A stretch of 25,000 nt of DNA from Candidatus Tectimicrobiota bacterium (GTDB taxonomy: Bacteria > Tectomicrobia > Entotheonellia > Entotheonellales > Entotheonellaceae): contig BPKO01000002.1 in NCBI GenBank assembly GCA_026005175.1, positions 1-25,000 of the forward strand, in the 5' to 3' direction. This document shows positions 1 through 14,063 of this stretch, piece by piece. Each line of letters opens with the position of its first letter. Within the stretch, counting starts at the first letter, position 1. Made by a program: the position numbers and the translations under genes. The notes under the pieces are model-generated. The model made no database searches. It saw only the letters and a list, made by a program, of their open reading frames with translations, and was not told the origin of the DNA.

Positions 1-2986
1 CCGTTTGCCGACCCGGCGGTGGCCGCGCTGGCCCTGGGGGTGGCAGGGGCGCGCCTGCGCCTGGGCGACCTGCAGCTCGCGGCGCTGCCGCTGCCAGGGC
101 AGGCCGCGCCGTTTGACCTCACCCTGCGCCTGGCCCTGCACCAGGAAACCCTGGCCGGGGGGGTGGGAGTACCGCACCGACCTCTTCGAGGCCGCAACCG
201 TCGCCCGCCTGCACCAGCACTGGCACACCCTACTGGCGGCCATCGCGGCGCAGCCAGCGCAGCGCGTCGAGCACCTGCCGCTGCTGCCAGCAGCGGAGCG
301 GCAGCGGCTGCTGCACGCCGCCGTGGGGCCACGGGTGGCGGTGCCGCAGGCGCCGTGCCTGCCCGCACTTATCGCGGCGCAGGCCGCGCGCCGGCCGCAG
401 CACGCCGCGGTGGTCTGCGGGAAGGCGCGGCTCACCTACGCCCAGCTCGAGGGGCGGGCCAATTGCCTGGCGCAGGCGCTGCACCGCCAGGGCGTGGCGC
501 CGGAGGTGCCGGTGGCCCTCTGCCTGCCGCGCACGGCCGAAGCGCTGGTGGGCATCCTGGGCATCCTCAAAGCGGGCGGGGCCTACGTGCCCCTGGATCC
601 GGAAACCCCACCGCCGCGGCTGGCCCTCTTGCTCGAAGAGACGCAGGCGCCGGTGGTGGTGACCTCGGCGGCGCTGGCGCCGCGCTTTGCGCGCCTGCCG
701 GGGCGCTGCCTGGTGGTGCCGGAGGCCGAAGCGGCGGCGGCGCCGCCGGTGCGGCTCGCCCCGCACCACCTGGCCTATATTATTTACACTTCGGGCTCGA
801 CCGGCCGGCCCAAAGGGGTGATGGTCACCCACGGCAACCTGCTTTCCTCCACGCACGCCCGCCTGCTGGCGTACGAGGAGGCGCCGGCGCGCTTCTTGCT
901 CCTCTCGCCGCTTACGTTTGACAGCTCGGTGGCGGGGCTCTTCTGGACCCTCTCCCAGGGCGGCACGCTGGTGCTGCCGCCGTCGGGCACCGAGGGCGAC
1001 CCGGCGGCGCTGGCCGAACTCATCGCGCGCCATCAGGTGACGCACTTGCTGGCGCTGCCCTCGCTGTACCAGGCGCTGCTCGAGCGGGCGCGCCCCGCAG
1101 CGCTGGCCTCCCTGCGCGCGGTGATCGTGGCCGGCGAGGCCTGCCCGGCCGGGCTGGCCGCGCGCCACCACGCGGTGCTGCCCCAGGCGGCGCTGGTGAA
1201 CGAGTACGGCCCTACCGAGGCCACGGTGTGGAGCACCGCCTACCGCGTGCCGCCGCAGGTGGCTGGCACCACCGTGCCCATCGGCCGCCCCATTGCCAAC
1301 ACCGAAGCCTACGTGCTCGACCGCCACTTGCAGCCGGTGCCGGTGGGGGTGGCGGGCGAGCTCTACCTGGGCGGGGAGGGGCTGGCGCGGGGCTACTGGC
1401 AGCGCCCGGGCCTCACCGCGGCGCGCTTTGTCCCCCATCCCTTTGCCACCCGCCCCGGGGCGCGCCTTTACCGCACGGGGGACGTGGTGCGGTGGCGGGC
1501 CGACGGCACCCTGGAGTGGCTGGGGCGCAGCGACCACCAGCTCAAGTGGCGGGGCTACCGCATCGAGCCCGAAGAGATCGAGGCGGTCTTGCAGCAGCAC
1601 CCGGCGGTGCGGCGGGCGGCGGTGGCCTTGGAGCGCTCCCGCGACCGGCTGGTGGCCTGGGTGGTGCCGGCAGGGGCGGTGGAGGAGGCGGCGCTGCGGG
1701 CTTTCTTGCAGCAGCGGCTGCCGGCCTACCTGGTGCCGGCGGCGTTTGTCTTCGTCGATGCCCTGCCGCTCACGGCGCACGGCAAAGTCGACCGCCACGC
1801 CCTGCCGTCCTTGCCGGCGACTTCCTCCGCGGCGGCGGGCACCCCGCTGGTGGCGCCGCGCGATGCCCTGGAGTACCGGCTGCTGCAGATCTGGGAGCAG
1901 GTGCTGGGCGTGCGCCCCCTGGGGGTATGGCACAACTTCTTCGACCTCGGCGGCCATTCGCTGCTGGCCATGCGGCTGCTGGCAGAAATCGAAAAAGCGT
2001 GCGGCCACGCGCTGCCGCTGAGCGCCCTGCTCCAGGCCCCCACCGTGGCGCAGCTGGCAGCGCTCTTGCGGCAAGAGGGGTGGCAGAGCCCCTGGCGCTC
2101 TCTAGTGGCCCTCCAGCCCGGCGGGCGGCATCCGCCCTTTTTCTGCGTCCCCGGCGCCGCGGGCGACGTGCTCTACCTGCGGGCCCTGGCCGAGCTGCTA
2201 GGGCCGGAGCAGCCGTTTTACGGCTTGCAGGCGCAGGGGCTCGACGGCAAGACGCCGTTTCAGACGCGCATCGAGGAGATGGCGGCGCACTACCTGACGG
2301 AGGTGCGGCAGCTGCAGCCAACAGGGCCGTACTTTCTGGGCGGCCACTCGTCAGGCGGCCTGGTGGCTTTCGAGATGGCCTGCCGCTTGCGGCAGCAGGG
2401 AGAAGCGGTGGCGCTGCTGGCCCTGTTTGACACCTTTGCTCCGGGGTACGTGGCGCAGGCTCGGCAGGCGCAGGCGGCGCGCCGCGGTTCGCGCTATGCC
2501 TGGCTGCGTGCGCGGTGGCAGTATCACGTGCAGCAGATGGCCGGCCGCACCGGGCGCGAGCAGCTTGCCTACGTGCGGGCGAGGGTTGCCGGGGTGGCCG
2601 GCAGTGTGATAAAGAGAATCTGGCAGGCTGCTGTGCGAGGCATGAAGCGCCGGCTGTGCCGCTTCTGTCTTGCCCACGGGCGGCCCATCCCGGCGCGGCT
2701 GCGGCACTTCTATGCCTATGAAATGGGTTCGCGGGCGGCAGAAGTGTACCGGCCAGGGATGTACCCCGGCAAGGTCACCGTCTTTTGCAGCACGCCAGCG
2801 GCCGAGCCGCAGCTGGGCTGGGCGGCGTATGCGGCGGGCGGCGTGGAGGTGGTCCCCATTCCGGGAGACCACCGCACCCTATTCAGGCCGCCGCACGTGT
2901 GCGAGGTGGCGCGGCAGCTGCAAGCACGCCTGGCTGCGGCGCGGGGGCACGGCAGCCAGGCGCTTCTGGCAGGGACATCAGGCTAG
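1..2986 (+). CDS. NRPS C-terminal part: C(partial)-A-PCP-TE, 5' truncated, one frameshift
   Basis: This is the terminal module of a non-ribosomal peptide synthetase. It would activate one amino acid, carry it on a phosphopantetheine arm, condense it and release the product. Frame 1 from base 1 encodes the end of a condensation domain. From the G run at 157-163 the reading continues in frame 2, so there is one base too many. Adenylation motifs in order are TSGSTGRPKG (about 785-815), NEYGPTEATVW (about 1199-1231), YRTGD with GRSDHQLKWRGYRIE (about 1470-1570), and the Lys motif GKVDRHAL near 1780. The carrier motif DLGGHSLLA has its Ser codon at 1958-1960. The thioesterase has GHSSGG (Ser codon 2348-2350) and a late GDH His. 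A hand alignment to the GrsA pocket gives roughly D-S-A-A-I-A-E-V-W-K, and I assign no substrate from it. TE is the last domain, so this is the end of the assembly line. The upstream part lies outside the window. Confidence 0.93.
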   Translation, partial: RLPTRRWPRWPWGWQGRACAWATCSSRRCRCQGRPRRLTSPCAWPCTRKPWPGGWEYRTDLFEAATVARLHQHWHTLLAAIAAQPAQRVEHLPLLPAAERQRLLHAAVGPRVAVPQAPCLPALIAAQAARRPQHAAVVCGKARLTYAQLEGRANCLAQALHRQGVAPEVPVALCLPRTAEALVGILGILKAGGAYVPLDPETPPPRLALLLEETQAPVVVTSAALAPRFARLPGRCLVVPEAEAAAAPPVRLAPHHLAYIIYTSGSTGRPKGVMVTHGNLLSSTHARLLAYEEAPARFLLLSPLTFDSSVAGLFWTLSQGGTLVLPPSGTEGDPAALAELIARHQVTHLLALPSLYQALLERARPAALASLRAVIVAGEACPAGLAARHHAVLPQAALVNEYGPTEATVWSTAYRVPPQVAGTTVPIGRPIANTEAYVLDRHLQPVPVGVAGELYLGGEGLARGYWQRPGLTAARFVPHPFATRPGARLYRTGDVVRWRADGTLEWLGRSDHQLKWRGYRIEPEEIEAVLQQHPAVRRAAVALERSRDRLVAWVVPAGAVEEAALRAFLQQRLPAYLVPAAFVFVDALPLTAHGKVDRHALPSLPATSSAAAGTPLVAPRDALEYRLLQIWEQVLGVRPLGVWHNFFDLGGHSLLAMRLLAEIEKACGHALPLSALLQAPTVAQLAALLRQEGWQSPWRSLVALQPGGRHPPFFCVPGAAGDVLYLRALAELLGPEQPFYGLQAQGLDGKTPFQTRIEEMAAHYLTEVRQLQPTGPYFLGGHSSGGLVAFEMACRLRQQGEAVALLALFDTFAPGYVAQARQAQAARRGSRYAWLRARWQYHVQQMAGRTGREQLAYVRARVAGVAGSVIKRIWQAAVRGMKRRLCRFCLAHGRPIPARLRHFYAYEMGSRAAEVYRPGMYPGKVTVFCSTPAAEPQLGWAAYAAGGVEVVPIPGDHRTLFRPPHVCEVARQLQARLAAARGHGSQALLAGTSG

Positions 2987-3580
2987 CGCAGCGTAGAGCC
3001 GGCGCCGCCAGCCATAGCCGGCAATGCCCAGCAGGCCGCTGGCAAGCAGCACCCAGGTGCCCGGCTCAGGCACGACGTGGATGTTCATGGTAAAAGCGCC
3101 GGTGCTTCCTGCGGCATAGATGCCAGAGAGGTCGGCGTGAATGGAATGCGGCCCAAAGGTGACGTAGCTCTCGTCGAAGCCGGGAATGGTAGGCCCTACC
3201 GTCACGCCGATGATATAGATATCCGGCGCGCCGAAGTCCAGGCCGGTAAAATCTAGCGTTACTCCGTTTACGCTGAGAGGTGCGACCAGATTCACCTCGA
3301 TGCTCCAGGCTTCGATGTCGATATATTCTCCCTCCAGGCCCGGCCCGCAGATGTTCTTCGAAGGATCCTCGCAGTCGATTTCCCGGACGCCGGCGGCCAC
3401 GGTCACCGTGTCGGCGAAGGTGCCAAACCCCGGAACCGTCAGGGTAATGTCCACGCTGTCGCCAATCAGCGAGGCGTGGGCCTGCTCGCCACCCAGCCCG
3501 GCGTAGGCCAGCACGCAAGCCAGGCCCAGCGCCGCAGCAGTGAGTGCCCGGCGCCAGAAGGGTGTGGTCCTGTAGCGCAT
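2978..3580 (-). CDS. PEP-CTERM sorting-domain protein
   Basis: This is a 200-residue exported protein. An N-terminal signal peptide (basic start, hydrophobic stretch, about residues 1-37) precedes a beta-rich, low-Cys middle region of unknown function. The C-terminus is a classic PEP-CTERM signal: VPEPGTWVLLASG, a short hydrophobic helix and an Arg cluster (about residues 168-195). In this family the tail is processed by an exosortase in the inner membrane, and the mature protein goes to the surface or the exopolysaccharide matrix. The start is set by an AGGAGA ribosome site 5 bases before the ATG. The 3' end overlaps the convergent NRPS gene by 9 bases. The gene stands alone and has its own sigma-54 promoter about 50 bases upstream. 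No exosortase gene is in the window. PEP-CTERM assignment is certain; the function of the middle region is unknown. Confidence 0.93.
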   Translation of the reverse strand: MRYRTTPFWRRALTAAALGLACVLAYAGLGGEQAHASLIGDSVDITLTVPGFGTFADTVTVAAGVREIDCEDPSKNICGPGLEGEYIDIEAWSIEVNLVAPLSVNGVTLDFTGLDFGAPDIYIIGVTVGPTIPGFDESYVTFGPHSIHADLSGIYAAGSTGAFTMNIHVVPEPGTWVLLASGLLGIAGYGWRRRLYAALA

Positions 3581-3629
3581 TGCGGTCTCCTTCTCCAGAG
3601 GTAAAACCAGGGTCCTGGCTCACTCCGGA

Positions 3630-3644
3630 GCAAGGGGCGTGCCA
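3630..3644 (-). promoter_or_regulatory. sigma-54 promoter of the PEP-CTERM gene
   Basis: Read on the minus strand the bases are TGGCAC-GCCCC-TTGC, an exact match to the -24/-12 consensus with GG and GC separated by 10 bases. The start of transcription would lie near 3618, giving a leader of about 38 bases to the ATG at 3580. The core GGCACGCCC(C/T)TTGCTC is almost identical to the second sigma-54 promoter at 9180-9194, so the two may share control. PEP-CTERM genes in other bacteria are known to be driven by RpoN with an NtrC-type activator (PrsR). Confidence 0.85.
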
Positions 3645-3753
3645 GGGCGGCATGGCCGGGTAAAAAAGCCACCCCGAGGGCAGCACGCGCAGCCATGACG
3701 CCCGCTGAGACACCCGGTCGCATGCATCACATCGACCCCATGACCGGCCGTTG

Positions 3754-3771
3754 CGTCTTGCAGCTGAGACC
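3754..3771. promoter_or_regulatory. Candidate enhancer site 1, GGTC-N10-GACG
   Basis: On the minus strand this reads GGTCTCAGCTGCAAGACG, an inverted repeat GTCT-N8-AGAC. Its centre is about 119 bases upstream of the -24 element of the PEP-CTERM promoter, a normal distance for a sigma-54 activator. It keeps the GTC-N10-GAC geometry of the GlrR-type sites near 9266 and 9322 but differs in the outer bases. Confidence 0.5.
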
Positions 3772-3784
3772 CCGCAGCCTGGGG

Positions 3785-3802
3785 CGTCTCAACCCTAAGA
3801 CC
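3785..3802. promoter_or_regulatory. Candidate enhancer site 2, GGTC-N10-GACG
   Basis: On the minus strand this reads GGTCTTAGGGTTGAGACG. It matches 13 of 18 positions of the site at 3754-3771 and has the same GTCT-N8-AGAC arms. The two centres are 31 bases apart, close to three helical turns, which suits paired activator binding. The rest of the 289-base gap 3581-3869 holds GC-rich hairpins (arms at 3818-3824 and 3833-3839) and no gene that I can support. Confidence 0.5.
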
Positions 3803-3869
3803 CCTGGCCAGGCCTCGGGGCCGGCTCGGAGACCGGCCCGGGCATCGTCCTTAGTCCTCAGCGCTGGCC

Positions 3870-4600
3870 ATGGAGAAGGCTCGCTTGTCTTCGCTCGCGG
3901 GCCAGCCGCTGCCGCGCCACCTGGCCATCATCATGGACGGCAACGGCCGCTGGGCCCAGCAGCGCCACCTGCCCCGCACCGCCGGCCACTGGGAAGGGGT
4001 AAAGACGGTGGACGCGGTGGTCTCGACGTGCCGCCGCCTGGGAATCCCGGCCCTGACGCTGTTTGCCCTCTCTACCGAGAACCTGGGACGGCCACGGAGC
4101 GAGCTGGCGGTGCTCATGCGCATCTTGCGCCACTACCTGCGGCGAGAAGCCGCGCGCCTGCGCCGCCAGGGCATCCGCCTGCGCACCATCGGCAATCCCC
4201 GCCTCTTGCCCGCCGCGGTGCGCGCCGCCCTGGCCAGCGCCAAAGCCCACACCCGCCGCGGCACGGCGATGGTGCTGACCCTGGGCCCCTGGGCTACGGC
4301 GCCCGCGCCGAAATGGCGCGCGCCGCCCGCCGCCTGGCCCGCCAGGTGGCCCGCGGCCGCCTGGCCCCGGCAGAGATCGATGCCCAGCGCTTTGCCGCCG
4401 CCCTCGATACCGCCGGCTTGCCACCGGTGGACTTGCTCATACGCACCGGCGGCGAGCAGCGCCTGAGCAATTTCCTGCTGTGGCAGAGCAGCGCCGCCGA
4501 GCTCTACTTCACTCCGGTGCTGTGGCCCGATTTTTCCCCCGCGCACTTGCTGCAGGCGCTGCAGGCCTACGCGCAGCGCCGCGGCGCCCGGCCTGCTTAG
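3870..4600 (+). CDS. uppS: Undecaprenyl diphosphate synthase-type cis-prenyltransferase (frameshifted)
   Basis: This protein would condense isopentenyl diphosphate onto an allylic diphosphate in cis, making the lipid carrier for wall and surface polysaccharides. The N-terminal part shows [14 protein letters not shown] with the catalytic Asp, then [14 protein letters not shown]. The C-terminal part shows [18 protein letters not shown], then [12 protein letters not shown]. The two halves lie in different frames: frame 3 up to about 4285 and frame 2 afterwards. Around the break (4281-4293) the bases are CTGGGCCCCTGGG. Removing one G and one C restores [13 protein letters not shown], which is what the family shows there. 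The combined product of about 243 residues has normal length. The ATG at 3870 lacks a clear ribosome site, so the start is the family-consistent Met before the domain. It is either a sequencing error or a recent pseudogene. Confidence 0.85.
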
Positions 4601-4631: not shown

Positions 4632-5129
4632 ATGCTTTGCCGCGTGCCGACGGCGCCCCAGCCCCTGGAGCCTTACCTCCCCCTGATGGAGGCCGCCCTG
4701 CGGCGCGAGCTGGCGCAGCTTGCCGGCCGCCTGCGCGGGGTCAAAGTGGCCCACCTCAACGCCACCGCCCAGGGCGGCGGCGTGGCCGAGATCCTGCGGG
4801 GCCTGGTGCCGCTGATGCAGGGCCTGGGCCTCGATGCCGCCTGGTACTGCCTGCAAGCCCCGCCCGCGTTCTTCCAGGCAACCAAAGCCCTGCACAACGC
4901 CCTGCAAGGCGCCCCCTGGCCGGATGCCGCCGCGGCCTGGCAGCTCTACAGCGAGGTCAACCAGCAGCTGGCGGCAGCGCTGCCAGCGGGCATCGACTGC
5001 TGGGTGGTGCACGACCCGCAGCAGGTGGGAGACCGAGAAGTGAACGCCTTTCAGCGCGGCTCGGAGGTGGTGGTGCAGAAGTCGCTGCGCGACTACCTGG
5101 CCCTCATCGCCGAGGTGGTGGATGCCTGA
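4632..5129 (+). pseudogene. treT: Internally deleted TreT-like trehalose synthase glycosyltransferase relic
   Basis: The first 130 residues look like the N-terminal half of TreT-type trehalose glycosyltransferring synthases: VAHLNATAQGGGVAEIL, a Trp-Tyr strand, then FFQATKALHNALQG and VVHDPQ. The family is about 400 residues long; this ORF has 165. After HDPQQ (about nt 5020) it jumps to a segment that in full proteins lies far downstream, EVNAFQRGSEVVVQKSLR. At about nt 5090 it jumps again to the usual extreme C-terminus, DYLALIAEVV. The nucleotide-sugar binding domain is therefore missing while the reading frame stays open. AGGAG lies 9 bases before the ATG. The end overlaps the next gene by 8 bases. 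Activity as a glycosyltransferase is very unlikely. It could be a relic kept for coupling, or an assembly collapse. Confidence 0.75.
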
Positions 5130-5611: not shown

Positions 5612-6974
5612 CTGACCCTGCCACGCCGCCTCCCTTTCCGCCGCGCTGCCGCTGCGCTGGGCCTTGGCTTGCTGCTGTGGCTGAGTGCCGGCCGCGCCGG
5701 CGGCCAGGTCCTCACCCTGACCCCCTCGCTGGCGGTAAGCGAGGGCTACGACGACAACCTCTTCCAGACCCACCGCGACCGCGAGGCCGATTTCGTCACC
5801 CTGCTGACCCCCGCCCTTGCCCTGCGCTATGCCCCCTCGCCCACCACCTCGCTCGACCTTGACTATCGCACCCGCTTTGCGTTTTTTGCCCGCCACACGG
5901 AGCAAAACCAGGTCTCGCAGCGCGCCGCGCTGCGCCTGGCCACCCCCTTGCTGGCCTTGCTCCGCGTGAACTTAAGCGATACCTTCGAGCTTACCGAAGA
6001 GCCCCTGGAGCGCGAGCTGACCATCGAGGAGGTGACCGGCCTGCGGCCGGTGAGCACGCAGCGCCGGCGGCGGACCCTGCGCAACCGCGCCGACTTGGCC
6101 CTGGACGTGCGCCTGCTGCCGCGCATCGCCCTCAACCCGTTTTTCGAAAGCCTGATCGTCGACGTCGACGTGCCCGACGAGGTGGACGAGGTGCGCTATC
6201 GCCTGGGTGGCGACTTGGGCTACATCACCCACGTGGCCCGCGACAGCCGCCTGAGCGTGGTCTATGACGTCACCCTGCACTTTTTTACCACCAACCCCGG
6301 CGGGGCGGCGCGCTCGGATTTCGCCGTGCACACCCTGGCCGCCCGCTTCCGCCACGCCCTGAGCCCGACGCTGACGAGCGACGTAAGCGTGGGCTACGCC
6401 CGCACCACCTCCGACGATGCGGCGCTCGACGGCGAGAGACAGCCTGGTGGCCAATGTGCGCCTGGTCAAGACGCTGCGCGACGGCCAGCTGGCCCTGGGC
6501 TACCAGCGCCGCCTCACTTCCGGCGGCGGCGAAGGGGAGGCGGTGGTGGCCGACGTGCTCACGCTCAGCGTTTCCGCGCCCCTCACGCCGCTTATTACGG
6601 CGCGCCTGGGGGTTAACGTCTCCTGGTTCGACTTCGACACCGCCACCCTGGGCAGCGGCGGCGACCGCTTCTTCCTGGCCCTGCGCCCCGGGGTGACGTA
6701 CCAGATGCTGCGCTTCTTCAGCCTGGCGGTGGACTACAGCTTCGAAGCCACCGACTTTACCGAGGAGGCGCTCGATCTTGACTTTGCCAACCGCCAGGAC
6801 CACCGCCTCGTGGTCACCTCGCGCCTGGCGCTGCGCAACTGGCTGTTCCTCGAGGTGTCGTACGCTTACACCCAGCGCCGCTTCAACGAGGTCACCGCCT
6901 TCCGCGGCGCCGAGGCCTTTACCCGCCACCAGGTGACCGTTTCCCTCACCACCGCCCCCACCTTGCGCTTTTAG
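5612..6974 (+). CDS. Outer-membrane beta-barrel protein (EPS/PEP-CTERM-locus type), frameshifted
   Basis: The product is about 450 residues. It has a signal peptide (Arg-rich start, hydrophobic core, cleavage near AGG|QVL), then repeated amphipathic strands typical of outer-membrane barrels, and it ends in Phe after an alternating strand. SLAVSEGYDDNLF near the N-terminus resembles barrels found in exopolysaccharide and PEP-CTERM loci. The frame changes from 2 to 3 near 6430-6440, inside GGCGAGAGACAGC. Dropping one base joins ALDGE to DSLVANVRLV. There is no ATG at the start. A strong ribosome site (5600-5609) downstream of the promoter points to CTG 5612, or to an ATG misread as CTG; GTG 5585 is the nearest conventional alternative but would sit at the very 5' end of the message. 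Secretion or porin function is inferred. Confidence 0.75.
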
Positions 6975-7003
6975 CCCGCCCGCGCCTGGCGCCAGGGCCC
7001 GCG

Positions 7004-7519
7004 CTAGAAGAGGGGCTCCACGTCGGCGCTGTCGATGTCCACGGCCACCGCGCGCTGGATGAGGTCGATGCTGACCACCAGGCGGTAGTGCTGCCTTTTG
7101 GCAATCAGGATGCCCTCGGCGCCGGCCAGCACGCCGCGCTTGACGCGCACCCGCATGCCCTCGCGCAAGTAAGGATAGGGGTCGTAGCGCAGCTGCTGCT
7201 CTACCATGGTGCGCACGGCGTCAATCTGCTCCTGGGGAATGGGCACCGGCTGGCCGTTGATGCCCACGAGGCGTACCACGCCGATGGTGGTGAGCACTCG
7301 CAGCTTCTCGCGCAGCGGGAAGTAAGCAAAAAGGTACCCGCTGAAGAGGGGCACCTCGATCAGCTTGATGCGGTCTTTCCAAACGCTGCGCTTGCGCCAC
7401 AAGGGAAGCAGGTGCGTTACCCCTTTGGCCGCCAGCTGGTCACGTACCACTTTCTCGTGCCGCGAGCGGGTATGAATGGCATACCAGTGTGGCTGATCTA
7501 CAACCGCCTCTGCTTCCAC
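7004..7519 (-). CDS. NusG/UpxY-family transcription antiterminator
   Basis: This is a specialised NusG paralogue of about 171 residues. The NGN domain begins with HWYAIHTRSRHEKVV and contains LPLWRKRSVWKDR and VPLFSGYLFAYF, which are characteristic of UpxY/LoaP-like antiterminators. A C-terminal KOW domain follows (REGMRVRVKRGVLAGAEGIL). Such proteins ride on RNA polymerase through long operons, most often for capsule and exopolysaccharide. The reading frame stays open to a TTG at 7552. I prefer GTG 7519 because GAGGGG lies about 8 bases upstream and the domain starts soon after. The gene is convergent with the barrel gene and lies last in the leftward regulatory block. Its target operon is not identifiable from the window, but surface polysaccharide genes are the likely class. 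Confidence 0.88.
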   Translation of the reverse strand: MEAEAVVDQPHWYAIHTRSRHEKVVRDQLAAKGVTHLLPLWRKRSVWKDRIKLIEVPLFSGYLFAYFPLREKLRVLTTIGVVRLVGINGQPVPIPQEQIDAVRTMVEQQLRYDPYPYLREGMRVRVKRGVLAGAEGILIAKRQHYRLVVSIDLIQRAVAVDIDSADVEPLF

Positions 7520-7573
7520 CGGGACTTCCCCTCTTTCCTCCCAGGGACCCAAACGCTGCCATGTGGATATTAC

Positions 7574-7603
7574 ACACTATCAGACTCGGGCCGCGGCACG
7601 CAA
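7574..7603 (-). promoter_or_regulatory. Possible sigma-70 promoter of the NusG-like gene
   Basis: On the minus strand: TTGCGT, an 18-base spacer, then TAGTGT, in the short gap between the hybrid kinase stop and the NusG-like gene. The region just after it is AT-rich for this genome (TGTGTAATAT). The match is moderate, and read-through from the kinase gene is also possible. Confidence 0.4.
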
Positions 7604-7616
7604 TGGCCAAGGCGGG

Positions 7617-8798
7617 TCAGCCGGCGCCGAGGAGGGCGTGGACCTGGCGCAGCAGGGCTTCGGGAGTAAAGGGCTTGGCGAGCACCGCCTCGGCCACCGC
7701 AGCGCCGTAGCGCTGCGCCAGCACCCCTGGCGGATAGCCGGAAATGAGGAGGACTTTGAGGTCGGGATGGCGGGCGCGAAGGCAAGCGGCCAGGGTGGGG
7801 CCGCTGAGCTGCGGCAAGACGACGTCGGCGAGCAGCACGTCGACCGGCTGTTCTTGGGCCAGGCGCAGGGCCTCGCTGGCCGAGCCGGCGGCCAGCACCG
7901 TGTAGCCCTGGCGCTGCAAGACGGCGCGTACCAGCTGGCGCACCTCGGCGTCGTCTTCCACCAGCAAAATGCGCCCCGCACCGCGCGGCAGCGGCGCCGC
8001 CTGCGGCGCCGGAGAGGAGGCCGCGTCGGGCGCGGCCCGCGGCAAGTACACGGTTACCGTAGTCCCTTGGCCCGGGGCGCTGCGCACCGCGAGCAGGCCC
8101 CGGTGCTGGCGCACGATCTGCGCCACGAGCGTCAGGCCGAGGCCGGTGCCGTGGGCTTTGGTGGAAAAGAAGGGGGTGAAGAGCTGCGCCTGCACCGCGG
8201 CGTCCATGCCGCAGCCGGTGTCTGCGACGGCCAGCTTTACGGCCGGCCCGCGCTGCGGCGCCTCGGTTGCCACCTCGGCAAAGTCGGCGTTGGCGGTGTG
8301 AATCGCCAGCCGGCCGCCCTCGGGCATGGCGTCACAGGCGTTGCGCACCAGGTTGAGGAGCACCTGGGCCAGGGCCGCCGGATCCCCACAGACCTCGCCC
8401 AGGTCGGGCGCCAGGCAGGTTTCAAGGGAAATCGCCTCGCCCAGCAGGGCCTGCAGCAGCCGGCTGAAGTCGGCGATCAGGCGGTTCAAGTTCACGGCCT
8501 GCCGCGGCTGCCCGCGGCCGCAGGCAAGCAGCTGGCGGGCAAGGGCTGCTGCTTGCTGGGCGGCCCGGAGCACGGCCTCGAGCTCGGCGCGCCGCGGCGC
8601 CGAGCCGCGCTGCAGCAAGAGCTCGCTGTAGCCGCCGATCACCGTCAGCAGGTTGTTGAGTTCGTGGAGAACGCCGCCGGCCACCCGTCCCAGGGTGGCC
8701 AGCCCCTGGAGCTGCTGCCACGCCGTGGCCGTCAGGGTCACCTCTTCGGCGCCGGCGTCTTGGCGAGAAGCGGTCACGCCCCTGGCCTCACGAGGCAC
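7617..8798 (-). CDS. Soluble hybrid histidine kinase (HisKA-HATPase-REC)
   Basis: The protein has 393 residues and no transmembrane or PAS domain. Only about 35 residues precede the H-box (GGVLHELNNLLTVIGGYSELL, His45). The ATPase domain shows an N-box (LVRNACDAMPEGG), DTGCGMD, FTPFFSTKAHGTGLGL and a G2-like GQGT. A receiver domain (about residues 275-390) ends the protein, with VEDDAEVR, Asp in LLADVVLPQL and Lys in LAKPF. It therefore autophosphorylates and can pass the phosphate to its own receiver. The input must come through a partner. The GTG start at 8798 overlaps the Fis-type gene by 11 bases. GTG 8777, with GAGG 8 bases upstream, is an equally good start. It is co-transcribed with the Fis-type gene from the sigma-54 promoter. 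The HELNN box is typical of NtrB-like kinases. Confidence 0.9.
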   Translation of the reverse strand: MPREARGVTASRQDAGAEEVTLTATAWQQLQGLATLGRVAGGVLHELNNLLTVIGGYSELLLQRGSAPRRAELEAVLRAAQQAAALARQLLACGRGQPRQAVNLNRLIADFSRLLQALLGEAISLETCLAPDLGEVCGDPAALAQVLLNLVRNACDAMPEGGRLAIHTANADFAEVATEAPQRGPAVKLAVADTGCGMDAAVQAQLFTPFFSTKAHGTGLGLTLVAQIVRQHRGLLAVRSAPGQGTTVTVYLPRAAPDAASSPAPQAAPLPRGAGRILLVEDDAEVRQLVRAVLQRQGYTVLAAGSASEALRLAQEQPVDVLLADVVLPQLSGPTLAACLRARHPDLKVLLISGYPPGVLAQRYGAAVAEAVLAKPFTPEALLRQVHALLGAG

Positions 8799-9123
8799 GC
8801 TGGCTGGCCGGGGCCGCCTCGGGCGTGCCGTAGGGCATTTCGGGCATGGCGCGCAGCTTGCGCCGCAGCGTCTGCGGCGAGAGGCGCAGCAGGCGCGCTG
8901 CGGCGGCGAGGTTGCCGCCGCTGGCCTGCAAGGCCCTGAGAATGAGCGCCCGCTCGAGCTGGTAGACCACGGCGGCGGTGATCTCGGGCAGCGACCAGCC
9001 CTGGCGCAGCGCCTGCACCGCCGCTTCCAGGTTGAAAAAACGCATGGCGGGAAGGCGGCCCGTCTCCAGCGAGCGGGCCAGGGCTTCGGCCGCCACGGGG
9101 TCTAAGAGCGAGACGGCAGGCAT
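8788..9123 (-). CDS. Small Fis-type helix-turn-helix protein
   Basis: This 111-residue protein has a C-terminal Fis/HTH_8 motif (about residues 54-92): LERALILRALQASGGNLAAA followed by ARLLRLSPQTLRRKL. This is the same fold as the DNA-binding end of sigma-54 activators, but there is no AAA or receiver domain. It probably acts as a free-standing DNA-binding or architectural protein, or pairs with the kinase encoded next to it. AGGAGG lies 6 bases before the ATG. It is the first gene after the sigma-54 promoter and overlaps the hybrid kinase gene. The N-terminal 50 residues match nothing I recognise. The DNA target is unknown. Confidence 0.82.
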   Translation of the reverse strand: MPAVSLLDPVAAEALARSLETGRLPAMRFFNLEAAVQALRQGWSLPEITAAVVYQLERALILRALQASGGNLAAAARLLRLSPQTLRRKLRAMPEMPYGTPEAAPASQRAS

Positions 9124-9179
9124 GGCATTCCTCCTCGTTCAGCAACCGCAATCGTGCGCTCGGCATGCGTCTTTACAGA

Positions 9180-9194
9180 GCAAAGGGCGTGCCG
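9180..9194 (-). promoter_or_regulatory. sigma-54 promoter of the Fis-type/hybrid-kinase operon
   Basis: The minus strand reads CGGCAC-GCCCT-TTGC, with the invariant GG and GC 10 bases apart. The start of transcription would lie near 9168, about 45 bases before the ATG at 9123. The core GGCACGCCC(T/C)TTGCTC matches the PEP-CTERM promoter at 3630-3644. Confidence 0.85.
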
Positions 9195-9257
9195 AGGCGC
9201 CTGCGCCTTGTAAGGCCAGCCGCCGCCGTGCCCGCTGCGGCAAGACCGGGACAGGGT

Positions 9258-9275
9258 TGTCGCCAGCAAGCGACA
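9258..9275. promoter_or_regulatory. GlrR-type enhancer site, TGTC-N10-GACA (proximal)
   Basis: TGTCGCCAGCAAGCGACA is a perfect TGTCGC-N6-GCGACA palindrome centred about 73 bases upstream of the -24 element. TGTC-N10-GACA is the known recognition pattern of enterobacterial GlrR/QseF. A glrR homologue ends 63 bases away. Confidence 0.85.
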
Positions 9276-9313
9276 CAAGGAGCACGGGATCCTGCGTTTT
9301 CAGGGCCTTAGGC

Positions 9314-9331
9314 TGTCGCCGGCAAGCGACA
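9314..9331. promoter_or_regulatory. GlrR-type enhancer site, TGTC-N10-GACA (distal)
   Basis: TGTCGCCGGCAAGCGACA is identical to the proximal site except for one central base, and C/G pairs flank it. The centres are 56 bases apart. It lies only 6 bases past the glrR stop codon, outside any gene. Confidence 0.85.
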
Positions 9332-9337
9332 GGGGAG

Positions 9338-10717
<1,380 letters not shown>

Positions 10718-10731
10718 AAACGCGCCTTCGT

Positions 10732-11403
10732 TCAAGTCGCAGGCATCTGGGGGCGCTTGCGCTCGTGCAAGCGCTTTTCGATGTGCTTGAGCTCGTCGAT
10801 CATCTTTTGCAAATTCTCTACCAACTGCCGCTCCTGCTGCAGCTGTTTTCGGCACTGCTGGCGGGCAGCCTGGGAGGCTTTGGCTTCCGCGTGCAGCTGC
10901 TGGCAGGTGCGCTCCAGCGCCTGCTTTTCCAGCCGCACCGCTTCCAGCTGGGCGCGCACCGTCTGGTAGAGGACGGCGTTTTTCTGGCCGTCGCCGACCA
11001 GCTGCCCCAGCAAGGCAGCAAAGTGCTTGCCGGCGCCCTCGGGGGCTTGCTCGCCGTAAGCGCGCAAAAGGGTCAGGGCGCGGGCCGGGTCGCGAAACGG
11101 CGCGTCGGGCAGCAGCAAGAGCAGGCTCAGGCGCAGGGCGTTGTCGCCGTGGGCGGCGTAGCGCGCCGCTTCTTCCTCGTAGCGGGCCTGGAGCTGGGCT
11201 GCCGGAAGCGCTTGCAGCTGCTGGTAGTCGCGCAGCAGCGCTGCCAGGTCGGCGTCGCGGCTCAGCCGCAGGCGCCACGGGCCGGCACAGGCGGCCAGCA
11301 GCAGCAAGAGCCCTGCGCAGAGCAGGCTCCAGCTGGCCAGGCGGCGCGCTTCAGGCCGGCTGCGCGGGCAAGACGACGCGGAAGTGGGCACCGGTGGGAA
11401 CAT
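10732..11403 (-). CDS. qseG: QseG/YfhG-like lipoprotein
   Basis: A lipoprotein signal with the lipobox LLAAC (Cys39 from the chosen ATG) is followed by a helical domain. A long charged coiled coil forms the C-terminal third (residues about 140-215, rich in Gln, Glu, Lys and Arg). In enterobacteria QseG sits between qseE/glrK and qseF/glrR and acts as an envelope partner of the kinase, and the gene position here is the same. The start is uncertain. ATG 11403 overlaps the kinase gene by 53 bases and leaves a long n-region; GTG 11391 is an alternative, and neither has a clear ribosome site. Translation is probably coupled to glrK. The family call rests on synteny, length and architecture more than on a recognisable motif. 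Confidence 0.75.
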   Translation of the reverse strand: MFPPVPTSASSCPRSRPEARRLASWSLLCAGLLLLLAACAGPWRLRLSRDADLAALLRDYQQLQALPAAQLQARYEEEAARYAAHGDNALRLSLLLLLPDAPFRDPARALTLLRAYGEQAPEGAGKHFAALLGQLVGDGQKNAVLYQTVRAQLEAVRLEKQALERTCQQLHAEAKASQAARQQCRKQLQQERQLVENLQKMIDELKHIEKRLHERKRPQMPAT

Positions 11404-12778
11404 CGTGCAGGACTTCGATGCGGCCGTTGAGGGCGGCCAGGTACTCCTTGGCAATCGCCAGGCCCAGGCCGCTGCCGCTGATGATGCCTTGCGGCGACGG
11501 GGTGCTCTGATAAAAGGCCTCAAAAACCCGCTCCTTGTCTTCCGGGGCAATGCCGGGGCCCGAGTCCACCACGTCGAGGATGGCGGCGTCGGACCGGCGC
11601 TGCAGCGAAATGCGAATGGTTCCCCCGTCCGGGGTGTACTTGACGGCGTTGGAGAGCAGGTTGTCGATGACGATGCGCAGCTTCTCGTCGTCGCCCCAGA
11701 CCAGGGTTTCGGTGGCGGCAATCTCCAGGTGCAGCTTTTTGGCAATGAGAACCGGCTTGTGGTCCACCGTCACCTCTTCGAGCACGCGGTGCAGGGGCAC
11801 CGGCTTGAGCGCCGGCACGGCCTGGCGCGCCTGCACCACGCTGAAGCGCAGCAAGTCCTCGATGAGCTTGTGCAAGTGCACGCACTTCTGGCGCAGGATG
11901 TGGACGATTTCCCGCTGCTGCGCGGTGAGGGGGCCGACCACCTCCTCGGCTAGCAGCTCCACCCCCTCGCGGATGGCGGTGAGCGGCGTTTTGAGCTCGT
12001 GCGAGACGTTGCGCAGGAACTTGGTCTTGGCCGCTTCGAGCTCCTGCAGGCGCCGGCGTAGCCAGTCGAGGCGCTGCCCCACCTGCTCGAGGTCGCGCGG
12101 CCCGCGAATGGCGATCGCGGAGGCGAAGTCGCCTTCCCCCAGCCGCCGGATGGCGTGGTCGAGCTGGCGGATGGGGCGGGCGATGAGGAGCACGAAAATG
12201 GCGGTGAAAAGCAGCGCCCCGGGCACCAGCCCCACCGCCTGCCACAGCAGCGTGCGCTGCGCGGCGCTGGCTGCCGCCTGCATGGCGGCCACTTCGCGGT
12301 CGACCAGATCGCTGCTTTCGGCAAGCAGCTGCCGCGCCGTCTCGGTGAGCGCGGCAAAAGCGCTCAGCGCCTGGCCCTGCGGCGCCGCCGGCGGCTGCCG
12401 CAGGGCGGCAGAGACGGCTTCCTCCTGCGCTAGCATGGCCTGGAGCTGCTGCTGCTGCGCCCCTGCAAGCGGCAGGTTGGCCATGTTGGCCGCCGTTTGC
12501 CGAAAGCGGGCGCGGGCGGCGGCGTAGGCGTCGAGCAGCTCGGCATCGCCCAGCACCTGGTACTGCCGGGCGTGGCGCTCCATGGTGAGCAGCTGGTCGT
12601 AAAGGGCGCGGAAGCCCTGGGTAACCACCACCGCGCGGTAGACCGCTTGCTGGCTGCGCTCGGCAAGGCGGTCGACGGCGACGGTGGCCACGACGATGCC
12701 CAGGATGAGGGGAAAGGCAACCAGGCAGAAGCCCAGCAGCACTAACTTGACGAACGATTTGGGACGATAAAGGGCCAT
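11351..12778 (-). CDS. glrK: GlrK/QseE-like membrane sensor histidine kinase
   Basis: The protein has 475 residues. Transmembrane helix 1 spans about 12-34 and helix 2 about 180-200. The helical region between them would face the periplasm. HAMP follows (RPIRQLDHAIRRLGEGDF, about 201-250), then the H-box NVSHELKTPLTAIREG with His260. The ATPase domain has IDNLLSNAVKYTPDGG, DSGPGI, FEAFYQ and GSGLGLAI. It would phosphorylate Asp61 of the GlrR-like regulator encoded two genes on. The start at ATG 12778 is preferred over the upstream open frame (to 12913) because a strong promoter with its start near 12802 lies between them. The next two genes overlap or follow closely, giving one operon. The stimulus cannot be told from the sequence. 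Confidence 0.9.
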   Translation of the reverse strand: MALYRPKSFVKLVLLGFCLVAFPLILGIVVATVAVDRLAERSQQAVYRAVVVTQGFRALYDQLLTMERHARQYQVLGDAELLDAYAAARARFRQTAANMANLPLAGAQQQQLQAMLAQEEAVSAALRQPPAAPQGQALSAFAALTETARQLLAESSDLVDREVAAMQAAASAAQRTLLWQAVGLVPGALLFTAIFVLLIARPIRQLDHAIRRLGEGDFASAIAIRGPRDLEQVGQRLDWLRRRLQELEAAKTKFLRNVSHELKTPLTAIREGVELLAEEVVGPLTAQQREIVHILRQKCVHLHKLIEDLLRFSVVQARQAVPALKPVPLHRVLEEVTVDHKPVLIAKKLHLEIAATETLVWGDDEKLRIVIDNLLSNAVKYTPDGGTIRISLQRRSDAAILDVVDSGPGIAPEDKERVFEAFYQSTPSPQGIISGSGLGLAIAKEYLAALNGRIEVLHDVPTGAHFRVVLPAQPA

Positions 12779-12808
12779 GGCACGTCTCGCTTGCTGTGCG
12801 GTGGCAGC

Positions 12809-12837
12809 ACTGTACGCCGGCGCGGCCTGCTTGTCAA
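12809..12837 (-). promoter_or_regulatory. Sigma-70 promoter of glrK-qseG-glrR
   Basis: On the minus strand: TTGACA (12832-12837), 17-base spacer, TACAGT (12809-12814). The -35 is perfect and the -10 is 4/6. Transcription would begin near 12802, about 24 bases before the ATG of the kinase gene. The promoter lies in the divergent gap shared with the aminotransferase gene. Confidence 0.8.
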
Positions 12838-12851
12838 GCCCTTTGGCGGTG

Positions 12852-12870
12852 TGCCCCGCGCAGCGGGGCA
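12852..12870 (+). promoter_or_regulatory. Leader hairpin before the aminotransferase gene
   Basis: TGCCCCGC, loop GCA, GCGGGGCA: an 8-bp perfect stem ending 14 bases before the AAGGAG ribosome site of the gene starting at 12897. There is no T run, so it is not an obvious terminator. It could stabilise the leader or serve as a protein-binding inverted repeat. Confidence 0.4.
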
Positions 12871-12896
12871 GGCAACTTAGAAGAAGGAGCGGTTCC

Positions 12897-14063
12897 GTGG
12901 TGGAGTGGCGCATTCCCCTTGCCGACCTCGAGCTCGACGAGACCGAAGTGCGCGCCGTGGCAGAGGTGCTGCGGTCGCGCTGGCTGTCGATGGGGCCGCT
13001 GACCGCCGAGTTCGAGCGGCGCTTTGCCGCTTACCTTGGCGTCAAGCACGCCCTGGCGGTGAGCAGCGGCACCGCCGCCCTGCACCTGGCCCACCTCGCC
13101 CTGGGGGCGGGGCCGGGCGATCGCGTGCTGTGCCCGGCCCTTACTTTTGTGGCTACCGCCAATGCCATTTGCTACAGCGGCGCGCAGCCGGTGTTCGTCG
13201 ACATCACCAGCCCCGACGACCTCAACCTGTCGCCCGACGACGCGGCGGCCAAAATCGACGCCACCACCCGCGGCATCTGCGTGGTGCACTACGGCGGCTA
13301 CGCCTGCGACATGGAGCGCATCGGCCGCCTGGCGCGCGCCCACGGCCTCTACGTGGTGGAAGACGCCGCCCATGCCCCGGGAGCGGCCTGCTGGGTGAGC
13401 GACGGCGAGGGCACGCTGGTGCTCAAAAAGTGCGGCAGCCTGGGCGACGTGGGCTGCTTTAGCTTCTTTGCCAACAAGAACCTGACCACCGCCGAGGGCG
13501 GCATGCTCACCACCAACAGCGATGCAGTGGCCGAGAAGCTGCGCCTGCTGCGCTCGCACGGCATGACCAGCCTCACCTGGGACCGCCAGCAAGGGCACAG
13601 CTTCAGCTACGACGTGGTGGCCCTGGGGTTCAACTACCGCCTCGACGAGCTGCGCGCCGCCCTGGGGCTGGTGCAGCTCGACAGGCTCGAGGCCAACAAC
13701 CGCCGGCGCCAGCAGGTGGTGGCCTGGTACCGCCAGGCGCTGGCCGAGCTGCCGGACATCGGCGTGCCCTTTGCCGGCGTCACCACCCCCTCGGCCTACC
13801 ACCTCATGCCCGTTCTCTTGCCCCCCGGGGTTGACCGCACCCGCCTCATGCAGCACTTGCGGGCGCGCGGCATTCAGAGCAGCATCCACTACCCGCCGAT
13901 CCACCGCTTTGCCCACTACCGCCGCGCGGCAGGCCAGGTGCACCTACCGGTGACCGAGGCGGTGGCCGCGCGGCTCCTCACCCTGCCGCTGTACCCCGCC
14001 ATGCGCCGCGAAGACGTGCAGGCGGTGGTGGCGGCCCTGCGCGACGGACTGGCTGCGGCGTAA
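12897..14063 (+). CDS. DegT/DnrJ/EryC1/StrS-type sugar aminotransferase
   Basis: This is a PLP enzyme of 388 residues that would transfer an amino group to a keto group on a nucleotide sugar, giving amino sugars for surface polysaccharide. The family pattern is clear. MGPLTAEFERRFAAYLGVKHALAVSSGTAALHLA comes first in the N-terminal part (split here over residues 32-65). VVEDAAHAPGA follows, with the cofactor-binding Asp, then SFFANKNLTTAEGGML with the Schiff-base Lys194, then GFNYRLDELRAALGLVQL. The C-terminal HYPPIH segment is also typical. The start is GTG 12897, 7 bases after AAGGAG. Its position next to MurJ-like and EPS-type genes fits an envelope role. The exact sugar is not predictable. 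It is transcribed divergently from glrK and ends 6 bases before the convergent glycosylase gene. Confidence 0.92.
   Translation: MVEWRIPLADLELDETEVRAVAEVLRSRWLSMGPLTAEFERRFAAYLGVKHALAVSSGTAALHLAHLALGAGPGDRVLCPALTFVATANAICYSGAQPVFVDITSPDDLNLSPDDAAAKIDATTRGICVVHYGGYACDMERIGRLARAHGLYVVEDAAHAPGAACWVSDGEGTLVLKKCGSLGDVGCFSFFANKNLTTAEGGMLTTNSDAVAEKLRLLRSHGMTSLTWDRQQGHSFSYDVVALGFNYRLDELRAALGLVQLDRLEANNRRRQQVVAWYRQALAELPDIGVPFAGVTTPSAYHLMPVLLPPGVDRTRLMQHLRARGIQSSIHYPPIHRFAHYRRAAGQVHLPVTEAVAARLLTLPLYPAMRREDVQAVVAALRDGLAAA

Follow-up and report, generated by a model that had tools for sequence, protein, structure and literature searches.

A predicted GlrR-activated sigma-54 promoter directly after glrR in a Candidatus Tectimicrobiota bacterium, and its counterparts with other cargo in another class

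The short stretch between glrR and the gene that follows it in a Candidatus Tectimicrobiota genome very probably holds a sigma-54 promoter activated by GlrR itself, as judged from sequence comparison. The promoter would drive genes for a Fis-like protein, a soluble hybrid histidine kinase and probably a UpxY-type antiterminator. To our knowledge, little is known of GlrK and the stress regulator GlrR outside the enterobacteria, where glmY and rpoE are the established targets. The window, by which we mean the whole 25,000-nucleotide stretch analyzed (contig BPKO01000002.1, positions 1 to 25,000), carries on its minus strand, in this order, glrK, a lipoprotein gene, glrR, a gap of 214 bp, the Fis-like gene and the hybrid kinase gene (Table 1). 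A preliminary description of this DNA had placed a Fis-type helix-turn-helix (HTH) gene and a hybrid kinase gene next to glrK-qseG-glrR. All of them are there, in order and on a single strand, with qseG represented by a lipoprotein gene that gave no Pfam or NCBIfam match.

The gap contains two palindromes, both reading TGTCGCTTGC[T/C]GGCGACA, which are exact TGTC-N10-GACA sites, as had been described, with 6-bp arms (TGTCGC/GCGACA). They are spaced 56 bp apart, and the distal one lies just where it had been reported, six bases beyond the end of glrR. Their distances to the -24 element had been given as 73 and 129 bases, figures that hold when counting starts from the site centers; counted from the site ends, 63 and 119 bp remain to the sigma-54 site. 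Two exact sites within the 214-bp gap never arose in 20,000 dinucleotide shuffles, and a single one arose in only 16. Allowed one mismatch, TGTC-N10-GACA is common in the window (6 observed against 4.8 expected). The perfect form, TGTCGC-N6-GCGACA, occurs three times in the 4-Mb genome, two of these in the gap; we rejected the third (C4:252465) as a GlrR target, as it overlaps the start of an RNA-methyltransferase-like ORF and comes without a good sigma-54 site. The gap also holds a single weak IHF-like site, with one mismatch.

Our reference sites for E. coli were taken from the glmY promoter of the K-12 genome. The middle upstream activating sequence (UAS) there is TGTCGCTTTCTGGCGACA, and the proximal site of the window, read on the transcribed strand, is the same at all but one of its 18 bases and in equal orientation. 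The protein side of the match is as close. The recognition helix of GlrR, RNRTEFYKLL, is identical in the window and in E. coli and is absent from the other enhancer-binding proteins (EBPs) examined in this genome. The NCBIfam GlrR model is the best match for the protein, at 645 bits against 424 for ntrC, the next; this score lies below the equivalog cut-off of 763, as do the scores from 32 positive genomes of another class. Among the Pfam families, Response_reg and Sigma54_activat are strong, and HTH_8 falls just below its cut-off. The published consensus for QseF/GlrR upstream of glmY is TGTN12ACA (PMC6075780), and two such sites stand upstream of the sigma-54 promoter in the window. Since the sites resemble a glmY UAS and are joined by a matching sigma-54 promoter, GlrR very probably switches on the neighboring regulatory genes. 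The likeness to E. coli extends to the arrangement as a whole: a glrK-qseG-glrR operon, several TGTC-N10-GACA sites, a sigma-54 promoter and a target that adjoins the operon. The differences are that the predicted target in the window lies after glrR rather than before glrK, encodes proteins rather than a small RNA (sRNA), has two sites rather than three and belongs to a different phylum.

Table 1. Features of the glr locus and of the predicted target operon, in the order of transcription.
Feature	Coordinates	Strand	Remarks
glrK-like membrane sensor kinase gene, HAMP-HisKA-HATPase	11351..12913 (start may be near 12778)	-	Orthologue in relative G001 53% identical, operon order kept
QseG-like lipoprotein gene, lipobox LAAC	10732..11350 (start approximate)	-	Assigned from position and lipobox alone
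glrR, REC-AAA+-HTH sigma-54 activator, 459 aa	9338..10717	-	60% identical to E. coli GlrR
Distal predicted GlrR site (UAS), TGTCGCTTGCCGGCGACA	9314..9331	-	16/18 against E. coli glmY UAS; 6 bp past glrR stop codon
Proximal predicted GlrR site (UAS), TGTCGCTTGCTGGCGACA	9258..9275	-	17/18 against E. coli glmY UAS; orientation to promoter matching
Sigma-54 promoter, CGGCACGCCCTTTGCT, -24 GG, -12 GC	9179..9194	-	Second-best sigma-54 score in the window
Shine-Dalgarno sequence of Fis-like gene, AGGAGG	9130..9135	-	Read from the sequence
Fis-like HTH protein gene, 111 aa	8788..9123	-	PF02954, E 7e-13
Soluble hybrid histidine kinase gene, HisKA-HATPase-REC, CckA-like	7617..8798 (start codon uncertain)	-	
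UpxY-family NusG-type antiterminator gene	7004..7552 (GTG start at 7519 also possible)	-	Above UpxY family cut-off

The sigma-54 promoter, called good in the preliminary description, is borne out: it has a single mismatch to TGGCAC-N5-TTGCW, its -24 element being CGGCAC instead of TGGCAC. The predicted transcription start falls at about 9168, leaving a leader of about 45 nt before the Fis-like gene. We considered an sRNA in this interval and rejected it, given a leader so short, with a ribosome site, ordinary folding and no relevant Rfam match. No terminators or sigma-70 promoters were found across 6950 to 9400, a span that includes the 64 bp separating the kinase gene from the UpxY-type gene on the same strand. 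The latter, which had been overlooked, is probably the third gene of the operon.

Genome-wide, the combination is close to unique. The pattern TGTY-N10-RACA followed after N40-70 by a sigma-54 promoter has two matches in 4 Mb, one in the window and one at C1:516491, and the reversed control has none. Both matches carry a second UAS; at C1:516491, the second palindrome lies 67 bp upstream. This other promoter (L119 8425-8908; C1 ~516424-516907) follows a PhoB/PhoR-like gene pair and precedes the gene for a 75-aa basic protein, which has no Pfam family and a 48% identical homologue in another genome of the phylum, G004. A looser pattern gave about as many matches as its reversed control in G000 and was dropped. 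Two further candidates, a nosZ-like gene (C6:121806) and a PAS-type gene (C11:22916), were also set aside, their motif arising from tandem TGACA-N3-TGTCA-like repeats, which are a different kind of site. Repeats of this kind before sigma-54 promoters (L122 ~3790-3920, L123 ~4890-5010) are probably the sites of another activator.

The position of the promoter has counterparts far from this phylum. A search for GlrR in 386 genomes across the domain gave three matches. One of them led us to its class, presumably the Gammaproteobacteria in the GTDB sense, where a search of 143 genomes then found 32 positive. From this class, 34 glr loci were retrieved, selected by GlrR and not by its sites. With the sites of each locus left out of the matrix used to scan it, 11 of the 34 have a UAS and a sigma-54 promoter on the same strand in roughly the first 600 bp past the glrR stop codon (L162, L163, L164, L165, L166, L169, L172, L173, L174, L176 and L180). 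In five others (L170, L171, L179, L184 and L189), the promoter is found on the glrK side, either divergent from that gene or ahead of qseG, recalling E. coli with its glmY. A matrix built from the three E. coli sites alone places such a pair after glrR in nine of the 34 loci and in the window, a result matched by none of 200 shuffles. With the fuller matrix, the glr loci (376 kb) yield 20 pairs, whereas unrelated contigs totaling 702 kb yield none. Because this matrix retains the sites of the locus being scanned, its count of 20 is biased upward for the training loci; the zero of the control is independent of this. Among 17 double-site promoters, the spacing between sites is 56 to 68 bp in 16 and 84 bp in one (median 66), and the proximal site stands 53 to 94 bp from the promoter. 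The 56 bp of the window is the shortest spacing seen. The earlier proposal that GlrR regulates the promoter of the Fis-like and kinase genes thus finds support in the near-identity to the glmY UAS, the recognition helix, the near-uniqueness in the genome and the same architecture elsewhere.

What lies behind the promoter changes from locus to locus. Small exported EF-hand proteins are encoded there in L162, L166, L169, L173 and L179, with one more in L170; BON-domain proteins in L165 and L189; and an OpgG/MdoG glucan protein in L174 and, behind a short unassigned stretch, in L176. In L171 (2353-3156) and L172 (7840-8655), the gene is that of the PEP-CTERM/exosortase-associated acyltransferase TIGR03694, behind leaders of several hundred bases, which may connect GlrR with exosortase systems. 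In L184, the promoter overlaps the start of the qseG-like gene, with the sigma-54 site lying some 2.0 kb ahead of the stop codon of glrR, and the cargo is the lipoprotein gene, which suggests autoregulation in that lineage. We found no description of GlrR targets of these kinds in a literature whose subscription papers were covered incompletely. We prefer to view the window as a single case under a broader rule, by which a local GlrR promoter often follows glrR and its cargo changes.

Closer relatives look different. In a phylum sample of five genomes, the window's own and four relatives, the order glrK-lipoprotein-glrR is common to the window and G001 only. After glrR, G001 has neither the palindromes nor the operon for the Fis-like protein and kinase, and the strict pattern is absent from its whole genome. 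G001 and G003 do contain palindromes like these, but none has a suitable sigma-54 promoter alongside, and we rejected them as GlrR targets. As a separate full-length gene, the Fis-like protein was found in none of the four relatives and in none of 56 other genomes. In a tree of GlrR, the window pairs with G001 (support 0.93), and the pair is nested inside the other class, joining L175 and L176 with 0.90; support is weak at the deeper nodes and falls to 0.19 at one of them. The tree is most simply explained by acquisition of the glr operon from the other class, possibly along with the promoter downstream of it. Whether the double-site promoter after glrR is an old, portable slot, carried along with the glr operon even from phylum to phylum while the gene behind it is exchanged, strikes us as an even call.

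What would the promoter do here? Extrapolating from E. coli, GlrK, modulated by the QseG-like lipoprotein, would phosphorylate GlrR, which would bind both palindromes and open the sigma-54 promoter through its AAA+ domain. The transcript would then span the Fis-like gene, the soluble hybrid kinase gene and probably the UpxY-type gene. In this way, an envelope signal may raise a small set of regulators encoded beside genes of PEP-CTERM and exopolysaccharide type. A single-sequence model of the Fis-like protein (mean pLDDT 74) resembles the DNA-binding domains of Fis and NtrC, best that of E. coli Fis, with weak E-values; its recognition helix is unlike that of GlrR, so it should not compete for GlrR sites. 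In the kinase, no sensor domain was found, and the motifs of the phospho-acceptor histidine and the receiver aspartate are kept, as read by eye. A GlrR-driven cascade has a precedent in the sigma-54 promoter of E. coli rpoE, where GlrR likewise drives another regulator (PMC6075780); there the regulator is a sigma factor, here it would be a Fis-like protein and a hybrid kinase.

The neighborhood includes a PEP-CTERM gene (2978-3580, minus strand), a gene with a partial match, below the cut-off, to a PEP-CTERM-associated outer-membrane protein family, and an AMP-ligase/carrier/thioesterase gene. Given these PEP-CTERM-type neighbors and the UpxY-type gene, the operon would most likely feed into exopolysaccharide or surface control. 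Its probable third gene, by its score, resembles the specialized NusG proteins of the UpxY/RfaH types. These stand first in an exopolysaccharide operon, whereas that of the window appears last behind a sigma-54 promoter. The claim that one two-component system switches on another therefore survives in part: a soluble hybrid kinase is indeed encoded, but with the probable UpxY-type gene behind it what the operon controls may be exopolysaccharide rather than another full two-component system.

It is here that the most durable alternative comes in. A glr cluster acquired by horizontal transfer may have brought the GlrR-driven promoter with it; the genes for the Fis-like protein and the kinase would then be mere passengers, with no weighty cascade and an output, if any, that is mainly UpxY and exopolysaccharide. 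This is compatible with the promoter part of our explanation and disputes only the cascade. The nesting of the window and G001 within the other class would fit it, as would cargo that differs among lineages, the UpxY match above its cut-off and the PEP-CTERM-type neighbors. A Fis-like gene with a good ribosome site right behind the promoter argues otherwise, as do Fis-like and kinase proteins that look intact, and we regard the passenger account as a minority view to be taken seriously.

That GlrR is a bystander, and that PrsR or another EBP binds the palindromes and controls the operon, we consider improbable. The genome does encode a true PrsR, on contig C12, and has eight other EBP-like matches besides GlrR, and the PEP-CTERM gene of the window has its own near-perfect sigma-54 promoter, TGGCACGCCCCTTGCT, at 3629-3644 on the minus strand. 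PrsK/PrsR control of PEP-CTERM genes would indeed resemble our case as sigma-54 control in PEP-CTERM and exopolysaccharide surroundings (PMC1569441). However, motif 1 of PrsR ends in TTTACA (Haft 2006, PMC1569441), unlike the palindrome, and PrsR is encoded elsewhere. From the end of glrR to the -24 element, the transcribed strand contains no TTTACA, and the PEP-CTERM promoter has no GlrR-type palindrome. On motif and recognition helix together, we rejected PrsR as the binder; against other activators stand the near-identity of the palindrome to the E. coli GlrR site and a helix that, among the EBPs listed, only GlrR shares with its E. coli namesake. Most improbable of all is that the palindromes act in the RNA, as terminator or processing hairpins at the 3' end of glrR, rather than as protein sites: the distal one, so close to the stop codon, could form a hairpin, but it has no T-run or terminator-like site, there are two copies, their E. 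coli equivalents are known UAS, and the same sites precede sigma-54 promoters divergent from glrK, upstream of qseG and, at C1:516491, away from glrR.

For the window, then, GlrR control predicts a cascade that begins at an envelope sensor and leads to a Fis-like protein, a hybrid kinase and an antiterminator. More broadly, a GlrR binding code that appears to hold across phyla, combined with the rule that the promoter lies just after glrR, would predict local targets, many of them in envelope or exopolysaccharide functions, and so makes a wider role of GlrK/GlrR testable.

Two minor observations remain. Within the window, at 3695-4600 on the plus strand, homology to undecaprenyl diphosphate synthase runs across two frames, and the gene may be frameshifted or misassembled. 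Among the loci of the other class, three have no ORF before a terminator behind the promoter (L163 and L164, and L180 by eye), and their ORF-free regions gave no Rfam match; the transcripts after glrR are candidate sRNAs outside the enterobacteria. In L164 and L180 (the first 350 bp after glrR), and also in L163, the candidate region adjoins ybgC-tolQRA-like genes.
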